This document shows, piece by piece, positions 50,203-64,000 of a DNA stretch of 64,000 nucleotides. Source of the DNA: Vulcanimicrobiota bacterium (GTDB taxonomy: Bacteria > Vulcanimicrobiota > Vulcanimicrobiia > Vulcanimicrobiales > Vulcanimicrobiaceae). The notes beneath the pieces were generated by a model. It made no database searches. It was not told where the DNA came from and saw nothing but the letters and a program-made list of their open reading frames with translations. The position numbers were made by a program, and so were the translations under genes. The DNA is taken from positions 1 to 64,000 of the forward strand of contig DAHUXH010000002.1 in assembly GCA_027307235.1 (NCBI GenBank), given 5' to 3'. Numbering within the stretch: position 1 is the stretch's first letter; the number at the start of each line of letters is the position of its first letter.

Positions 50203-51351
50203 CTACTCGGCGAAGACGGCGTGCTCGAAGATGAAACGCCGGATCGCCGCTGCGACGACCTCGTGCTCGATCGGATGCAGGCGCGCGAGCACCGCCTCGA
50301 CGCTCTCGCTCGGCGCAATGCGCAGCGGCCGGCGCGCGAGGACGGCGCCGCGATCGGCCTCGAGCGTCAGGCCGTGCGCGGTCGCGCCGGTCCATGCAAC
50401 TCCGGCGGCAACGGCGTCTCGCACCGCCTGCGCGCCGCGAAAGGCCGGGATCACCGTTCCGTCGGGCATCCCGACCACCTCGCGCGCTTGATCGTGCGGC
50501 AAGAAGGCCGGATGAATGTTGATCGCGTCGGGAAATCGCGCGATGAACGCAGCATCCAGAACGTGCATCCAGCCGAGCAGCAGCACGAGTTCGGGGTCGT
50601 AGCCGCTCACGGCGTTCAGCAATTCAGCGTCATACTGCGCACGAGAGCGCTGCGCGCGGTCCCACACACAGAGCACTGGCGGCACGTTCGCCGCGCGCGC
50701 GCGCTCCAGCGCGAAGGCAGAAGCGCGGTTGGTCACAAGGCCGACGATATCGAGCGGGAGTTCCTGGACGGCAACGCGATCGAGCACCGCTTGAAAATTC
50801 GATCCGTTTCCCGACGCCATCACGACCGTTCGTACGCGTCGTGCGAACCAGTGGTCGCGCGCGAAGGTCTCGACGACACGCGCACCGGCAAGCCGCCGGT
50901 AATACGCGATCAGTCCATCGCCGCCAACGGCGGGAATGAGCGCTCGTGTGAAACCGGCTTCGCGCAGCGACGCGAATGCGAGTGTCGCGAGATTGCGGCC
51001 GAGATTGCCGCCGCGTTCGCTTTCGGCCACACCAAACGGACCGAAGATGCCGACGCCCGGTTCTCGCGCGACACCGCGCAGCCAGGCGAAGCGCATATCG
51101 CGCGCGCCATACGTGCAGAAGCCGGCGATCTCGCCGTCGCGATGCGCGACAACGGAGGAACCCGCGTAGGCTTCAGAACTCCATGTCCCGCCGAAACGCT
51201 GGTCGATCCATGCAAGCAGCGTGTCATCCGAGCCGTCAGCGACGTGCAGCGCGTAACCGGCGGCATCGAGCGCGGCGCGAGCGCTCGCGGCCGCATCCGC
51301 GCCGCAGCGCTCGTCGCCCAGATCGACGAGTAGATTGACGAGATCACGCAC
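50203..51351 (-). CDS. purN: GNAT acetyltransferase fused to phosphoribosylglycinamide formyltransferase
   Basis: 382 residues from GTG 51351, overlapping the purM stop by 8 bases. Residues 1-170 have a GNAT-like pattern (SSVVAHRDGEIAGFCTYG; VGIFGPFGVAESERGGNLG, an acyl-CoA-binding P-loop). Residues about 180-382 are PurN: VVMASGNGSNFQAVLDR, LLLGWMHVLDAAFIARFP, INIHPAFLP with catalytic Asn and His, and TGATAHGLTLEADRGAVLA with the catalytic Asp. PurN formylates GAR with 10-formyl-THF. The acetyltransferase partner's substrate is unknown. It is coupled to purM. Confidence 0.88.
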   Translation of the reverse strand: MRDLVNLLVDLGDERCGADAAASARAALDAAGYALHVADGSDDTLLAWIDQRFGGTWSSEAYAGSSVVAHRDGEIAGFCTYGARDMRFAWLRGVAREPGVGIFGPFGVAESERGGNLGRNLATLAFASLREAGFTRALIPAVGGDGLIAYYRRLAGARVVETFARDHWFARRVRTVVMASGNGSNFQAVLDRVAVQELPLDIVGLVTNRASAFALERARAANVPPVLCVWDRAQRSRAQYDAELLNAVSGYDPELVLLLGWMHVLDAAFIARFPDAINIHPAFLPHDQAREVVGMPDGTVIPAFRGAQAVRDAVAAGVAWTGATAHGLTLEADRGAVLARRPLRIAPSESVEAVLARLHPIEHEVVAAAIRRFIFEHAVFAE

Positions 51352-52369
51352 GCGCCGGATGCACGACCACGCGCGGTTCGTTGTCCGCTCGCGCCTCGAT
51401 CCAGCCGACGACGCGCGCACCCGCGACCGCATCCACCGCTTGCTGCGCCTGCGCGAACGGCACCACCAGCGTATACCCGATCCCCATGTTCAGCGTGCGA
51501 TATCGCTCCTCGTACGAGAGGTTGCCGCGGCGCACGAGTTCTTGCATGATCGGCGGCACGCTCCAGCGTGACTGCTCGAAGATCGCTTTGACCGCCGGCG
51601 GCAGCGTGCGCGGGACGTTTTCGAGCAACCCGCCGCCGGTGATGTGCGCCATCGTCTTCACGCGCGCCGCTTGCTGCATCGCGCGCACGGCATGGTAATA
51701 CGAGGGATGTTCGGCGAGCAGCGCATCGGCATACGTCGCTGCCTCGAAGGGTTGCAGCCACTCTTCGCGCGCGATCAGCGTGCGCGCCAGCGAGTAGCCG
51801 TTGGTGTGCAATCCGACCGCCGGCAAACCGACGATCGCATCACCGGGTTCAACGCTGGCCGGATCGGGAACGTCGCTGGTGTTGACGACGCCGACGATCG
51901 TTCCGGCGAGATCGAAGTGCTCGGGCGCGTACACACCCGGCATCTCCGCGGTCTCGCCGCCGAGCAACGCGCAGTTGTGCGCGCGGCACGCTTCATAACA
52001 TCCGGCCACGATCGCGCCGGCGACGTCGGGATCGAGTTTTCCGACGGCAAGATAATCAAGAAAGAACAACGGCGTGGCGTTGACGACCAGAATGTCATTG
52101 ACGCAATGGTTGACGAGGTCGCGCCCGACGCCGTCGTACCGCTTCAATTCAGCGGCGATGACGATCTTCGTGCCGACGCCGTCGGTCGATGCGGCGAGCG
52201 CCCGCCGCGCGTCGCCCGGCATGCGCATCAGACCGCCGAATCCGCCGATGGCGTCGAGTTGATCGGGGTGCCGCCATCCCGAGAGCACGTGCTTGTAGCG
52301 CTCGACCGCGGCATTGCCGGCCGCGATGTCCACGCCTGCGCGTGCGTATGCGTCGCCCGTGCCGCTCAT
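51344..52369 (-). CDS. purM: Phosphoribosylformylglycinamidine cyclo-ligase (AIR synthetase)
   Basis: 341 residues from ATG 52369; longer readings add an arginine-rich artefact. Signatures: YARAGVDIAAGNAAVERYK, AASTDGVGTKIVIA, DLVNHCVNDILVVNATPLFFLDY, LLGGETAEMPGVY, and HITGGGLLENVPR. It closes the imidazole ring of AIR using ATP. It forms an operon with the GNAT-purN gene; pepA is divergent. Confidence 0.94.
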   Translation of the reverse strand: MSGTGDAYARAGVDIAAGNAAVERYKHVLSGWRHPDQLDAIGGFGGLMRMPGDARRALAASTDGVGTKIVIAAELKRYDGVGRDLVNHCVNDILVVNATPLFFLDYLAVGKLDPDVAGAIVAGCYEACRAHNCALLGGETAEMPGVYAPEHFDLAGTIVGVVNTSDVPDPASVEPGDAIVGLPAVGLHTNGYSLARTLIAREEWLQPFEAATYADALLAEHPSYYHAVRAMQQAARVKTMAHITGGGLLENVPRTLPPAVKAIFEQSRWSVPPIMQELVRRGNLSYEERYRTLNMGIGYTLVVPFAQAQQAVDAVAGARVVGWIEARADNEPRVVVHPARA

Positions 52370-52470
52370 CGAGCCGCCTGCAACTGAACAAGGCTGTCCC
52401 GGCGACGCTTGCGAATATTGACTTTTTCTGACGCCATCGCGTCGTAGTTCATCGTAGCGAAAGGTTTGCC

Positions 52471-55565: not shown

Positions 55566-56936
55566 TCAGCCGGCGGTTGCGCGGGTTTCGAAATTGGCGG
55601 GTGCGGTGGGGTAGACGCCGGTCAGACAGCCCAGGCACATCTCCTTGCGATCGCGGCCGGTGGCGGCGATCAAGCCGTCAAGACTGAGATAACCGAGCGA
55701 ATCAGCGCCGATGATCGAGCGAATCTCTTCGATCGAATGATTCGCGGCGATCAATTCGGCGTGCGTCGCCATGGCGACGCCGAGCGGACACGGATGCTTG
55801 ATCGGCGGCGAGGTGATGCGCATGTGGACTTCAGTGGCGCCGGCTTCACGAAGCAGTTGCACGATGCGCGGCGTCGTTGTGCCGCGCACGATCGAGTCGT
55901 CGACGACGATGACGCGCTGTCCGCGCAGATTCTCGATCACCGGATTGAATTTCAAATGGACGCCGCGGTCACGCATCGCTTGATCCGGGCTGATGAAGGT
56001 GCGCCCGATGTACCGATTCTTGATCAAGCCCTCGACGAACGGCAACCCGCTGTGCGCCGCATAGCCGATGCCGCCGGGAATCGCCGAATCCGGAACCGCC
56101 ATCACGACGTCCGCGTCGACGGGATGCTCGTGCGCGAGACGCCGCCCCATCGCGTAGCGCGCCATGTAAATCGAGCGTTCGTTGAGCATTGAATCGGGCC
56201 GCGCGAAGTAGACGTACTCAAACATGCACAGCGCCGGATGCGCGTCTGCGACCGGAACGACGACCGACTCGATGCCGTCGCTCGTGATGCGCAAGACTTC
56301 ACCGGGTTCGATCTCCCGCACGTATTTGGCACCGATCGGCGAGAGCGCGCACGACTCCGAGGCGACCGCCCAACCGCCGCCTTCGAGCGCACCCAAACAG
56401 AGCGGCCGCACACCCCACGGATCGCGAAACGCGAACAATGCGTCGCGTGTATTCAAGACGATCGAGTACGCGCCGCGCGCGACCTTCATCGCGCGTACGA
56501 TGCGCTCCAACATCGGCCCGGTGCCTTGCGCGATATATTTCGCCAGAACGTCGGTGTCCGAGGTGGCGTCCAGGCGTGTGCCTGGTTTCAGGAGTCCTTC
56601 GAGTTCCTCGGTGTTGGTGAGATTACCGTTGTGCGCGAGCGCGAACGGGCCGGCGTCGCTCGATTCGAGCAACGGCTGCGCATTGACGACGACTGATGAC
56701 CCGGAGGTCGAATAGCGCGCGTGTCCGATCGCAACATGGCCGTGCAGCGATTCGAGAATCTCTTCATCGAAGATGCCGCTGAGCAGCCCCATCTCTTTGT
56801 GAACGGAAACATGACTGCCGTCGGCGGCGGCGATGCCGCCCGACTCTTGCCCGCGATGCTGCAGCGCGTAGAGCGCAAAATACGTCAGACGAGCCGCGTC
56901 GCGCTCCGGCGAGAAGATTCCGGCGATTCCGCACAT
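55566..56936 (-). CDS. purF: Amidophosphoribosyltransferase
   Basis: 456 residues. The nucleophile Cys2 follows Met directly (MCGIAGIFSPE), so no propeptide. Glutaminase domain: ALQHRGQESGGIAA, GHARYSTSGSS, HNGNLTN. Phosphoribosyltransferase domain: PRPP loop VIVVDDSIVRGTTTPRIV. CLGCLTGVYP near the C-terminus matches the 4Fe-4S ligand region of Bacillus-type PurF. First committed step of purine synthesis. A TAGAAT box (56946-56951) ends 9 bases before the ATG, predicting an almost leaderless mRNA. Confidence 0.95.
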   Translation of the reverse strand: MCGIAGIFSPERDAARLTYFALYALQHRGQESGGIAAADGSHVSVHKEMGLLSGIFDEEILESLHGHVAIGHARYSTSGSSVVVNAQPLLESSDAGPFALAHNGNLTNTEELEGLLKPGTRLDATSDTDVLAKYIAQGTGPMLERIVRAMKVARGAYSIVLNTRDALFAFRDPWGVRPLCLGALEGGGWAVASESCALSPIGAKYVREIEPGEVLRITSDGIESVVVPVADAHPALCMFEYVYFARPDSMLNERSIYMARYAMGRRLAHEHPVDADVVMAVPDSAIPGGIGYAAHSGLPFVEGLIKNRYIGRTFISPDQAMRDRGVHLKFNPVIENLRGQRVIVVDDSIVRGTTTPRIVQLLREAGATEVHMRITSPPIKHPCPLGVAMATHAELIAANHSIEEIRSIIGADSLGYLSLDGLIAATGRDRKEMCLGCLTGVYPTAPANFETRATAG

Positions 56937-58717: not shown

Positions 58718-59075
58718 GTTGAACCAGCAAGAATCCGTTGCCGTCGATATCGTCGAAGGTCGCGAAGTCGCCCCACGGCGCATGCTCGATGTCGCCGATG
58801 GCGACGCCGCGTTCGCGCAGCACGGTATGCGCACGAGGCAGATCGCCCGTGTTCAAGACGACGCCGCGCAACGATCCCGGCTTCATGTGCTCGAACCAGG
58901 TCACCAGCGCGAACGAGGTCGTCGCGCCTGCGTTCGGCGCGATTTGCAGCCAGCGCGCATCGGGTCCCATCGGCTCGTCACGCAGGACCACCCAGTCGAG
59001 CTTCTCAACGAAGAACCGCTTCGCACGCTCTTGATCGGAGACCGGAAGCGAAACGATGGAAATGCTTTCTATCAT
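58701..59075 (-). CDS. VOC/glyoxalase family protein
   Basis: 124 residues from ATG 59075, coupled to purD by a 4-base overlap. Two beta-alpha-beta-beta-beta modules: SISIVSLPVSDQERAKRFFVEK and RGVVLNTGDLPRAHTVLRERGV, ending in FATFDDIDGNGFLLVQP. The final Glu-type metal ligand region matches the family loosely, so it may be a binding protein rather than an enzyme. The substrate is unknown. Confidence 0.8.
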   Translation of the reverse strand: MIESISIVSLPVSDQERAKRFFVEKLDWVVLRDEPMGPDARWLQIAPNAGATTSFALVTWFEHMKPGSLRGVVLNTGDLPRAHTVLRERGVAIGDIEHAPWGDFATFDDIDGNGFLLVQPTEED

Positions 59076-60346
59076 GACAGCCCCCTCGCTATGTCGGTGC
59101 GGTAGGTGAGCGACGTCGCCCCGAAGCGACGGGCAAGGGTGGAAACGGCCTCGTAGACACGAGCGCGCGCGGCGGCGACGTCCTCGCCGAGCGCCGTGAC
59201 CGTCAACACGCGCCCGCCGCTCGCGTTGACGACCGCACCCTCTCTCTGCGTTGTACCCCAAAACGCCGCAATTCCATCGCCGAGCGAGAGATCCACCGGC
59301 AATCCGCGCAGGGGCGTGCTGGTCCGCGGATACTCCGCGGTCGCGAGAACGACGCCCACGCAGGCCTGGGGCGAGAACGAAGCGGCGCTCACGTCGAGCG
59401 CACCGTCGGCGCAACTCTTGAGCAGGGCGGCAAAATCGCCGGTGACGCGCGGCATCAGCACTTGCGTTTCGGGATCGCCGAAACGCGCATTGAACTCGAT
59501 CACGTATGGTCCGGCCTCGGTCCACATCAATCCGCAGTACAACACGCCGACATACGTCTCGCCCTCGGCGAGCAACCCGCGCAACACGGGAGCGAGAATC
59601 GTTTCCCGCACGCGATCGTACAAATTGTCAGGAAAGCCGACGGGCGGTGAGTACGCCCCCATGCCGCCGGTGTTCGGACCGGTGTCGCCGTCGCCGGCGC
59701 GCTTGTAATCGCACGCGGCGGCAATGGGAATCATCGCGCGTCCGTCGCAGAGCGCAAAGACGCTCACTTCACGTCCGTGCAGCCGCTCCTCGAGCAAAAC
59801 GTCCGTACCGCCTCCGGGGATCGCTTTCTGTTCGAACCACTCGCGCAGCACGGCGCGAGCCGCATCGACGTCGTCACAGACGACCACGCCCTTGCCGGCC
59901 GCCAGACCGTCGGCTTTGATCACCACGCCCGGCGACGTCCACTCGTCGAGCACTTTCTCGCCGGCTTCGAGCGAATGGATGATCTGAAACGGCGCGGTCG
60001 GCACGCCGTGGCGCGCCATGAAGCGTTTGGCGAAAATCTTGCTCGACTCCAATCGCCCGCCCGAGCGGTTCGGACCGAACACCGCGATGCCCGCATCGCG
60101 CAGCCGGTCACCGACGCCGGCCGCGATCGCCGTCTCCGGACCGAGCACGACGAGATCGATGGCATGGGCAATACACTGCTGAAGAATCGCCTTGCCGTCG
60201 ATCTGCGGAATATTCCAATTGACGCCGCGCGAGGCCGTTCCCGCGTTGCCGGGCGCTGCGAAGACCGCTTCGCACGAGGGCGATTGCGCGAGTTTCCACG
60301 ACAGCGCGTCTTCACGCGCGCCGTTACCGACGATCAAGATTCTCAT
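59072..60346 (-). CDS. purD: Phosphoribosylamine-glycine ligase
   Basis: 424 residues, ATP-grasp enzyme. RILIVGNGAREDALSWKL opens the N domain; SSKIFAKRFMARHGVPTAPF, VVIKADGLAAGKGVVVC, the signature FNARFGDPETQVLMPR and a C-terminal domain follow. It joins phosphoribosylamine and glycine, the step after PurF. It overlaps the VOC gene and follows guaA by 12 bases, so guaA-purD-VOC may be one transcript. Confidence 0.95.
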   Translation of the reverse strand: MRILIVGNGAREDALSWKLAQSPSCEAVFAAPGNAGTASRGVNWNIPQIDGKAILQQCIAHAIDLVVLGPETAIAAGVGDRLRDAGIAVFGPNRSGGRLESSKIFAKRFMARHGVPTAPFQIIHSLEAGEKVLDEWTSPGVVIKADGLAAGKGVVVCDDVDAARAVLREWFEQKAIPGGGTDVLLEERLHGREVSVFALCDGRAMIPIAAACDYKRAGDGDTGPNTGGMGAYSPPVGFPDNLYDRVRETILAPVLRGLLAEGETYVGVLYCGLMWTEAGPYVIEFNARFGDPETQVLMPRVTGDFAALLKSCADGALDVSAASFSPQACVGVVLATAEYPRTSTPLRGLPVDLSLGDGIAAFWGTTQREGAVVNASGGRVLTVTALGEDVAAARARVYEAVSTLARRFGATSLTYRTDIARGLS

Positions 60347-60358
60347 GGCGCGGCTACG

Positions 60359-61900
60359 TTACTCCCACTCGACGGTGGCGGGCGGTTTCGACGTGATGTC
60401 ATACGCGACGCGATTGACGCCCTGAATCTCGTTGACGATGCGTGTACTGATCCGTTCGAGCAATTCGTGCGGCAAGCGCGCCCAGTCGGCGGTCATGCCG
60501 TCTTCGCTTGTGATCGCGCGAACCGCAACCAGATTGGCGTAGGTCCGACCATCGCCCATCACGCCGACACTCTTCACCGGGGTGAGGACCGCGAAGTACT
60601 GCCACGGTTTGGGATCGAGTATGGCGGCGTCGATCTCTGCGCGCACGATCGCGTCAGCGTCGCGCACCAGCGCCAGGCGCTCTTCGGTGATGTCACCGAT
60701 GATTCGCACGGCCAGACCCGGCCCCGGGAACGGTTGGCGCTCGACGATCGCTTCGGGAAGTCCGAGCACGCGGCCGACTTCGCGCACTTCGTCCTTGAAC
60801 AGCGCACGCAGCGGCTCGATCAGCGCCAGCTTCATCTTCTCCGGCAATCCGCCGACGTTGTGATGCGACTTGATCTTGTGCCCGGCTTTGGAATCCGGCG
60901 TCTTCGATTCGATGACGTCGGGATAGAGCGTGCCCTGCACCAGGAATTGCACGTTCGGAATCTTCGCCGCCTCTTCGTCGAAGACGGCGATAAATTCGTG
61001 CCCGATGATGATGCGTTTGCGCTCGGGGTCTTCGATGCCCGCGAGTTTGTCGAGAAACCGTTTGCGCGCGTCGACCGCGATCACATTGAGGTGCAGGACG
61101 TCGCGAAACGCCTTCACCACCTGCTCCGCCTCGTTCTTACGCAACAGGCCGTGATCGACGAAGATGCACGTCAATTGCCGGCCGATCGCCCGCGACACGA
61201 GCGTCGCCGCGACGGCTGAATCGACGCCGCCGGAGAGCGCGCAGATCACATTTGCCTCGCCGACCTTTTCGCGAATCTCGGCGATGCTGCGTTCGACGAA
61301 CGATTCCATCTTCCAGTCGGAGACGATGCCCGCGATGCCGTGCAAGAAGTTGTCGAGCACCGCGCGTCCGATCTGGGTATGCGCGACCTCGGGATGAAAC
61401 TGCGTTCCGTAGATTTTGCGGCCGGCATCGCCCATCGCGGCCACACGACAGCGCTCGGTCGACGCAAGCGTGACGAAGCCTTCCGGCAACTTCACGACCG
61501 AATCGCCGTGCGACATCCAGACGCGCGATTCGAGCGGAGCGCCAGCGAAGAGCGGATCGCCGGCGCCGTCGACGTGCAGCATCGCAGGCCCGTACTCCGC
61601 CTTGGCCAGCGGCACGAGTTCTGCGTGCAATTTGCGCGCAATCAATTGCATCCCGTAGCAGATACCGAATATCGGTACGCCGCTGTTCAAGATCGCCTCG
61701 TCACAATCGGGCGCGCCCTCCACGAGCGTGCTTTCGGGGCCGCCGCTCAGGATGAAGGCGACGGGTTGGCGCGCTTTGAGCGACTCCCACGTCGCGTCAT
61801 ACGGAACGATCTCGCAGTAGATGCCGATTTCGCGCACGCGGCGCGCGATCAGTTGGCTATACTGCGCCCCGAAGTCAAGGACGAAGACGGTGGCCGGCAT
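60359..61900 (-). CDS. guaA: GMP synthase (glutamine-hydrolysing)
   Basis: 513 residues. Glutaminase domain with nucleophile Cys in FGICYGMQL and the FHPEVAHT His-x-Glu; ATP pyrophosphatase loop [13 protein letters not shown]; dimerisation domain with [18 protein letters not shown] and the C-terminal [18 protein letters not shown]. It converts XMP to GMP. It lies 8 bases after tpx. Confidence 0.96.
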
Positions 61901-61908
61901 GGAATCGA

Positions 61909-62445
61909 CTATTTCGCAGCCGCGAGCGCTGCTTCGATCACCTTGTCGTAGTTCGGCTCGTTCGTGATCTCCGGCACGATGTCGACGAAGCGAATTGTCT
62001 TGTCTTTTCCGATGATGAAGATCGACCGTGCCAGCAGCGCCAGCTCTTTGACGAGAACGCCGTAGGCCAGGCCGAAACTGTGATCGCGGTAATCGGAGAG
62101 CATCGTCAGGGTGATGTCGCCTTCGTCGCCGCGCCAGCGCGATTGCGCGAACGGAAGGTCAACGCTGACGACGTAGGCCTGCACGCTCTCCGGCAGTTCG
62201 GCGACCCGCTCGTTGAAGGTGCGCGATTCGAGCGCACAGACGCTGGTGTCGAGCGACGGAACCGCGATGAGCAGCGCCGCACGCTTGCCGCCGTCGGTCA
62301 CCGTGTCGAGCGTGACGGGCGAGAGATCGCTTCCCCTCAAGGAAAAATCAGGCGCTTGCGCGCCGGCCTGCAACGCATTGCCGAGCAGGGTCATGGGATT
62401 GCCTTTGAACGTCACCGCTCCGGCGCGTTCGATTGTGGTCTGCAT
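61909..62445 (-). CDS. tpx: Thiol peroxidase Tpx, apparently 1-Cys
   Basis: 178 residues of the atypical 2-Cys peroxiredoxin family. The peroxidatic Cys lies in [18 protein letters not shown]. The segment [15 protein letters not shown] corresponds to the E. coli region that carries the resolving Cys (RFCGAEG), but Arg stands in its place, and the visible protein has only one Cys. It reduces lipid and other hydroperoxides; turnover would need an external thiol. Confidence 0.92.
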
Positions 62446-62484: not shown

Positions 62485-63618
62485 CTAGGTAAGCACCTCT
62501 GCAAGACGCCGCGCATCGCGTGCCGACACGACTTCCATCGCAATGCGCTCCCCGACCGAGACGTCGCGTCCCCAGCGATACGCCGAGTAGGGGGTGTAGC
62601 GGGTTCCCGGCGACCCCGGGATACGCAGCGACACATCATAGCAGACGAACTCTTTGGGCGGGCCGGCGATGATGGCGCATTGCAGCGCGAATGGTCCGAT
62701 GACGCCGGGCGGGTTCGCTTCACGCGCGGCCGCGACAAAACGTTCGCCCATCTCGAAGGCCTTCTCGAGCGTGGATTCGGTCAGCGTGGCCGCGATGTGT
62801 CCGGCTTCTTCCATGCGCATCGGCACGTTGCGCAGCGCGGCGAGCGACGACGGCGGCACGTTGCGAAAGCCTTCGAGATTCGTCTGGCGCCTGGTGTCGG
62901 TGCCCATCAACTCCAGCTCGCCCAGCATCGGTGAGAAAAAGAAGTTGAGGTTGATCGTCGGGCCGAGCAAGTACTCCTCGATCACCGCATCCTGCAAGCC
63001 TACCTGCGTCACCATTCCGGCATCGAGCAGTTGCTGCGCGGCCTCGTCGTACTCCGCCGGCGACGAGCAGAGAAAGAACGCGCGTTCAAACGTCACCTTC
63101 GCATGCGGCGCCTTCACCATGACGAGCCGATCGATCGCGCTGCGAGAAGCGAACTGCCGTGGATGGCGGATGCCGGCCTTCGCCAGCAATGCATATTGAT
63201 TGTCGGCCTCGTCGCGCTCCTCGGCGCGCAAGAGAGCGCGATTGCCGAAGAATGGAACGCGCATGCCGCGTTCGATCTCATCGTACGTGTAGCGTTGGCG
63301 CAGGTAAACTTCGAACGAACGGTTCGGCACGAAGATAGCGTTGGCGGCGAGCAAACGCTCCTGCACGTCATCGCGAAGTATGTCGGCGAAGGTGTCGATT
63401 TCGACGGTCGCATCGACGCAACCGCGCGCGGGATCGCCACGGCGGATGAAGTGCCGCGCGTAGGTTTGCTCGCGTCCTTTGGCGGTCACGACGAGATTGC
63501 GCAAGCCGGCGGCGCGCGCGCCGAACGCCACGTCGAGCGCGGAATGACTGCCGACCGAGCAGATGGTTAACCGGTCGAGATCGTAGCGAGCGAGGGCGGC
63601 GTCGACGATAGCGTTCAT
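62485..63618 (-). CDS. purP: PurP-like formate-dependent FAICAR synthetase
   Basis: 377 residues, ATP-grasp, matching archaeal PurP along its length: TICSVGSHSALDVAFGA, VVTAKGREQTYARHF, VPFFGNRALLRAEE, IEEYLLGPTINLNFFFSPM, LELMGTDTRRQTNLEGF, PPGVIGPFALQC and YSAYRWGRDVSVGERIAMEV. PurP formylates AICAR with formate and ATP in archaea; bacteria usually use PurH. The nucleotide-binding loop differs (VKAPHAKVTFERAF where archaea have a Gly-rich GARGGRG). ATG overlaps the stop of the upstream gene. Confidence 0.8.
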   Translation of the reverse strand: MNAIVDAALARYDLDRLTICSVGSHSALDVAFGARAAGLRNLVVTAKGREQTYARHFIRRGDPARGCVDATVEIDTFADILRDDVQERLLAANAIFVPNRSFEVYLRQRYTYDEIERGMRVPFFGNRALLRAEERDEADNQYALLAKAGIRHPRQFASRSAIDRLVMVKAPHAKVTFERAFFLCSSPAEYDEAAQQLLDAGMVTQVGLQDAVIEEYLLGPTINLNFFFSPMLGELELMGTDTRRQTNLEGFRNVPPSSLAALRNVPMRMEEAGHIAATLTESTLEKAFEMGERFVAAAREANPPGVIGPFALQCAIIAGPPKEFVCYDVSLRIPGSPGTRYTPYSAYRWGRDVSVGERIAMEVVSARDARRLAEVLT

Positions 63619-64000
63619 GCGTGAATCCGAATCGGAAGGTCCTCTTCAGTCGCAACGCCCGCTGCATTGCGCGCGATGATGCGCAACGGATAGGCGCGAT
63701 AGAAGATACCGGGAGCATCGAGCACGTGCAGCCGGAAGGCGAAGCGGCCGTACGACATGCGCGGAATGTTGAACGAAAAGAGATTCGTGCGCAGCTCAAC
63801 GGACGCGACGTTTGTCGAGGTGACGATCTCGCCGGAGCACCATGAACCCACGCGAAGATCGGTGTCGGAGAAGTGAATGAACACAATGACCGGCGCTGCG
63901 TCCGGTGCGCTGACGCGCGGCGACGGCGCGGCCATCGGCATTCGGCCGACGCGCGCATTCTCCGGCAGCGCCGGCGCCGTGCTCGCACACGCCGTCGTGA
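63615..64000 (-). CDS. Hypothetical protein upstream of purP, 5' end outside window
   Basis: The frame is open to the right edge; about 128 residues are visible, the last codon overlapping the purP start (ATGA). Visible text begins TTACASTAPALPEN, which would suit the end of a signal or lipobox, then VIVFIHFSDTDLRVGSW and beta strands (FRLHVLDAPGIFYRAYPLRIIARN) resembling an immunoglobulin-like domain. No family is assigned. ATG 63941 is an internal alternative. Confidence 0.45.
   Translation of the reverse strand, partial: TTACASTAPALPENARVGRMPMAAPSPRVSAPDAAPVIVFIHFSDTDLRVGSWCSGEIVTSTNVASVELRTNLFSFNIPRMSYGRFAFRLHVLDAPGIFYRAYPLRIIARNAAGVATEEDLPIRIHA

Follow-up and report, generated by a model that had tools for sequence, protein, structure and literature searches.

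A bacterial pair of PurP paralogs, one of them of cluster II type, as a probable PurH-independent route from AICAR to IMP

Two PurP-family proteins encoded together in bacteria, here called A and B, probably constitute a module that leads from AICAR to IMP independently of PurH. B is encoded by purP-B in the window analysed, a stretch of 64,000 nucleotides corresponding to C7:1-64000 of an Eremiobacterota genome (2.41 Mb, 96.6% complete), and judging from the sequence marks published for the archaeal proteins it very probably belongs to cluster II of the family. Archaeal PurP proteins were split into clusters Ia, Ib and II by Brown et al. (2011; PMC3261824). According to these authors, cluster I proteins carry an Asn at position 258 of the Methanocaldococcus jannaschii (MJ) protein, touching the carboxamide of AICAR, whereas cluster II proteins carry a His there, have exchanged the P-loop for a loop two residues longer, and occur as one copy per genome that carries a Ib protein; cluster II was left without an assigned function (PMC3261824). 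A 2014 survey described PurP as exclusively archaeal (PMC4177761), and our literature search, with most subscription journals and all preprints outside its scope, found nothing on bacterial PurP or on the function of cluster II. The window protein is a bacterial member of this known, uncharacterised archaeal kind; cluster II itself is known in archaea, and what appears new here is the bacterial occurrence of the A-B pair. This pair makes testable both the role of cluster II and the IMP cyclohydrolase missing from many archaea, which have been questions since 2011.

The purP-B open reading frame is genuine, its ATG at position 63618 overlapping the stop of the ORF upstream. The latter encodes a small lipoprotein-like product (window 63615-64000(-) and L034:1616-2041) and gave no match in the related loci searched. 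The purP-B product contains DUF1246 (119.5 bits, cut-off 25) and DUF1297 (182 bits, cut-off 23.8), both above the curated Pfam cut-offs, and aligns with M. jannaschii PurP (2r7k) over nearly its full length, from residue 9 to 366 (E=2e-59). Its AlphaFold model (pLDDT 93) superposed on 2r7k over 354 residues with a Z-score of 45 at 2.1 A, far above the next-best families, PurK and PurT, at a Z of about 20. Both domains and the whole-length fold thus place the protein in the PurP superfamily, and the end-to-end likeness to archaeal PurP perceived by eye in a first-pass annotation is confirmed. Its 247 bits against the NCBIfam models for FAICAR synthetase / formate-dependent AICAR ligase are far under the cut-off of 556 bits, and the marks of cluster I FAICAR synthetases, namely the P-loop (K/R)GG(K/R)G and Asn258, are absent.

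Table. Purine genes of the window and its flank, and diagnostic segments of purP-B. Positions are those of the window unless a contig is given.
Feature	Position	Strand	Basis or remark
purP-B, cluster II PurP-like protein (very probable), 377 aa	62485..63618	-	Pfam, 2r7k match, alignment, AlphaFold model
purP-A, canonical PurP, P-loop intact	C7:66700-67758	-	3 kb past window edge
tpx-like redoxin, separating B from guaA in only some members of the family	61909..62445	-	neighbourhood
guaA, GMP synthase	60359..61900	-	neighbourhood
purD	59072..60346	-	neighbourhood
purF	55566..56936	-	neighbourhood
purM	51344..52375	-	neighbourhood
purN with N-terminal GNAT-like acetyltransferase domain	50203..51432	-	neighbourhood
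purP-B residues 170-180 (APHAKVTFERA), replacing the PurP ATP P-loop	63079..63111	-	alignment
purP-B His25 = MJ His27, formyl contact (role: PMC3261824)	63544..63546	-	93/93 B
purP-B His274 = MJ Asn258, carboxamide contact, cluster II mark	62797..62799	-	His in 93/93 B
purP-B Arg332 = MJ Arg314, formyl contact (role: PMC3261824)	62623..62625	-	93/93 B
purP-B residues 334-338 (PGSPG), invariant only in B; A = VAG(T/S)N	62605..62619	-	alignment

To compare residues of the two proteins, 91 bacterial A sequences and 93 bacterial B sequences were aligned, with positions numbered as in the M. jannaschii protein MJ0136. Every A protein has Asn at position 258 and keeps the P-loop glycines Gly159, Gly162 and Gly163 (91/91), while the cluster II His stands at position 258 of every B protein. 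The loss of the Gly-rich ATP loop remarked on in the first-pass annotation is real: the nine residues FPGARGGRG of the M. jannaschii P-loop have given way in purP-B to a segment of 11, two residues longer and with basic residues as in archaeal cluster II, and the replaced loop of the 93 B sequences contains an invariant Arg. The formyl contacts His27 and Arg314 are invariant among both A and B, and B retains the formyl-contacting residues of MJ0136 and, mostly, those contacting the phosphate. The B pocket also keeps Ser266 invariant, together with His27 and Arg314, across distant phyla. Since B has invariant residues of its own (in the numbering of the window protein, PGSPG at 334-338 and a second B-specific motif, RRQT, at 243-246), it is a constrained protein and not a decaying copy. 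In a maximum-likelihood tree, whose archaeal references were MJ0136 and PF1517, neither of them cluster II, A grouped with the cluster Ib protein PF1517 of Pyrococcus furiosus (support 100/99) and B formed a single clade distinct from A, MJ0136 and PF1517 (support 100/100). B also occurs one-to-one with a cluster Ib PurP, as published for archaeal cluster II.

As the first-pass annotation had pointed out, purP-B lies in a bacterial purine neighbourhood, adjoined by bacterial tpx, guaA, purD, purF, purM and purN. The protein is not a lone transferred PurP: purP-A lies just beyond the window, directly behind purB-purC-purL-purQ and a 147-aa gene. The better half of the annotation's guess was the paralog, as the genome encodes two PurP paralogs and the window protein is the one with the cluster II type known from archaea. 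Between A and B this genome has two membrane-protein genes on the opposite strand. The 147-aa protein (L034:5723-6187(-) and relatives), encoded between purQ and purP-A at the PurS position of the Eremiobacterota operon and conserved there, had no Pfam or NCBIfam match. At the same locus PurC (L034:9208-10398(-)) bears a C-terminal fusion that is weakly PurE-like (AIRC 24 bits, under the cut-off). The genome search for purH proposed earlier found a complete PurH of 520 aa on contig C20, above the NCBIfam PRK00881 cut-off and with all the catalytic residues checked retained. The suggestion that purP-B replaces or supplements PurH therefore stands in its second half, as a supplement, and fails in its first half for this genome.

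Three families of Eremiobacterota have conserved the pair. PurP-family proteins were found in 112/149 genomes of this phylum, nearly all with exactly two copies, and two copies are nearly always present in families f1-f3; PurH was found in 121/149. The usual order, seen in most Eremiobacterota loci, is holA-purB-purC-purL-purQ-purS?-A-B-(tpx)-guaA-purD-purF(-purM-purN). Across all the genomes examined, CPR included, exceptions to the A-B pairing are mostly fragmentary genomes, plus G425, with an A-type PurP and no B found. The single PurP of G146, considered as a divergent Eremiobacterota member, was rejected as such: it belongs to cluster I, and its contig (L190, G146:C110), apparently of methanogen origin, is probably contamination of the Eremiobacterota bin. 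Degeneration of PurH where the pair exists was likewise considered and rejected, every catalytic residue checked being present. With PurH intact, it could be argued that in Eremiobacterota PurH does all the work and that A and B survive as a redundant remnant without a current role. This is very improbable, as both genes have kept invariant pocket residues and their operon order over dozens of genera.

The A-B pair was also found in Peregrinibacteria/Peribacter and Gottesmanbacteria, and 328 CPR genomes of the class to which the Gottesmanbacteria genome belongs were sampled. In this sample 58 genomes have PurP (exactly two matches in 54 of them) and 55 have PurH; 31 have both, 27 PurP only and 24 PurH only. 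PurH being intact in 31/58 of the PurP-bearing CPR genomes, as well as in Eremiobacterota, the pair cannot be read as a plain substitute for it. Replacement of PurH by the pair does fit these CPR relatives, unlike the source genome of the window. A strong purD match is present in 26/27 CPR genomes with PurP and without PurH, and among the PurH-less genomes purD and PurP are associated (26/1 vs 25/221, Fisher p about 4e-21, a value to be read knowing that the genomes are related and the events not independent). In another 25 CPR genomes purD is matched while PurH and PurP are both missing, so that purD alone is not proof of a full pathway. In six genomes (G210, G224, G234, G263, G312 and G322) purF,D,N,L,Q,M,E,C,B, A and B lie in one stretch of 16-20 kb, in which all the purine genes from PRPP to AICAR are present and purH is absent. 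Bacteria with every purine gene except PurH, but with A and B, make a strong gene-content argument. Several of the PurH-less CPR genomes are fragmentary. As they fall at several places in the B tree, the absence of PurH appears to reflect more than one event.

Other enzymes for the last steps were sought as well. PurO (PF07826) had no match in the 40 genomes checked, nor in any of the 27 CPR genomes with PurP and without PurH. For PurH2 the Pfam MGS domain proved too weak, its matches being mostly of CarB type and the true split PurH2 genes of G183 and G274 being missed, so it was replaced by a tailored 13-sequence profile that recovered 6/6 positive controls at E about 1e-69 or lower. On the 27 PurP-only CPR genomes this profile matched in G313 alone, at a contig edge; its remaining matches there were weak (E above 1e-5) and mostly in frames of CarB length. 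'Partial' PurH matches were considered as pseudogenes and rejected, PurH there consisting of two separate genes. In these loci (L180-L187, from G246, G199, G284, G332, G158, G236, G274 and G183) the two genes are adjacent, that for the AICAR formyltransferase preceding that for the IMP cyclohydrolase, the reverse of the usual domain order, and the cyclohydrolase catalytic residues are retained. Besides A and B, we found no unknown gene common to all the PurH-less CPR clusters. An M24-peptidase-like gene (about 290 aa) adjoins purD, purM or purP-A in L127, L129, L131, L135, L136 and L138, and is confined to one CPR sublineage without PurH.

Taken with the conserved pairing, these gene contents make it likely that the A-B pair acts on the way from AICAR to IMP. 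A different substrate for B, with the protein a ribotide ligase or cyclase that is linked to purines but acts outside this step (for example a formate-dependent GAR formyltransferase), would be in keeping with the residue changes near the substrate (His for Asn258, and the invariant motifs of its own) and with the occurrence of B even beside a complete PurH; it is improbable, however, as purN within the same clusters covers GAR formylation and as the PurH-less clusters miss only AICAR to IMP, with A and B as their sole extra common genes. In the preferred route through AICAR, A, with its intact P-loop, Asn258 and cluster Ib affinity, would convert AICAR, formate and ATP to FAICAR. No formate-THF ligase was found in the 40 genomes checked, which suggests that A would use formate directly, 10-formyl-THF otherwise having to come via another route. 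Direct use of formate would in turn explain PurH and the pair side by side, as PurN stands beside PurT.

The step from FAICAR to IMP is ATP-free, the carboxamide nitrogen attacking the formyl carbon. B would take FAICAR and close the ring, or else serve as an obligate partner of A. It has retained the ribotide and formyl pocket and lost the P-loop, with a His replacing Asn at the carboxamide as a possible base, and a formyl pocket without an ATP loop and with a His at the carboxamide is the profile expected of a cyclohydrolase. We therefore tentatively propose, as a possibility somewhat short of even chances, that B is an IMP cyclohydrolase. It might then represent a third kind of this enzyme, derived from ATP-grasp proteins as a formylase fold minus its P-loop, with His258 activating the carboxamide, an extension of the proposal that we hold just as tentatively. 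The fold of B is unrelated to those of PurH2 and PurO, so that their catalytic residues cannot be sought in it. If true, B would be the enzyme missing from Crenarchaeota and from the PurH-less CPR bacteria.

The rather unlikely alternative is that A alone makes FAICAR, that B is an obligate, non-cyclising and non-catalytic subunit of a mixed A/B oligomer, with a nucleotide-sensing, regulatory or structural task, and that an unrecognised enzyme makes IMP. The lost P-loop and the almost constant pairing of A and B agree with it, and an obligate complex would also fit the inactivity reported for the P. furiosus proteins PF1517 (Ib) and PF0421 (II) as AICAR formyltransferases, though they may be active under other conditions (PMC3261824). 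Yet the invariance of His27, Ser266, Arg314 and a large B-own set across distant phyla goes beyond the needs of a scaffold, and the PurH-less clusters share no third unknown gene. For the AICAR to IMP role as a whole, the archaeal precedent of Crenarchaeota, with Ib and II present and no known cyclohydrolase (PMC3261824), counts in favour, and the inactivity of PF1517 and PF0421, the intact PurH, the fragmentary genomes and G425 count against.

Among known systems, the closest to B are the archaeal cluster II proteins (PF0421 and Archaeoglobus fulgidus AF0256), which by their published description share with it His258, the longer basic loop, His27 and Arg314, and likewise occur once per genome beside a Ib PurP, often near purine genes (AF0256 near guaA1); a search of viral contigs and plasmids for archaeal cluster II sequences found none. 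B differs from them in its bacterial host, in its operon with bacterial pur genes and in the presence of PurH in the genome. With the M. jannaschii FAICAR synthetase MJ0136 (2r7k) it shares the whole fold and the formyl and phosphate contacts, but Asn258 is replaced by His, the P-loop is gone, Glu310 is Asp and Asn320 is Gly, at about 35% identity. PF1517 (2r84), the nearest solved relative of A in the tree, resembles A and not B. Finally, Escherichia coli PurT and PurN offer an analogy, and only that, to A-B beside PurH, in that a formate-dependent ATP-grasp enzyme and a folate-dependent enzyme serve one step, although the step (GAR) and the proteins are different.
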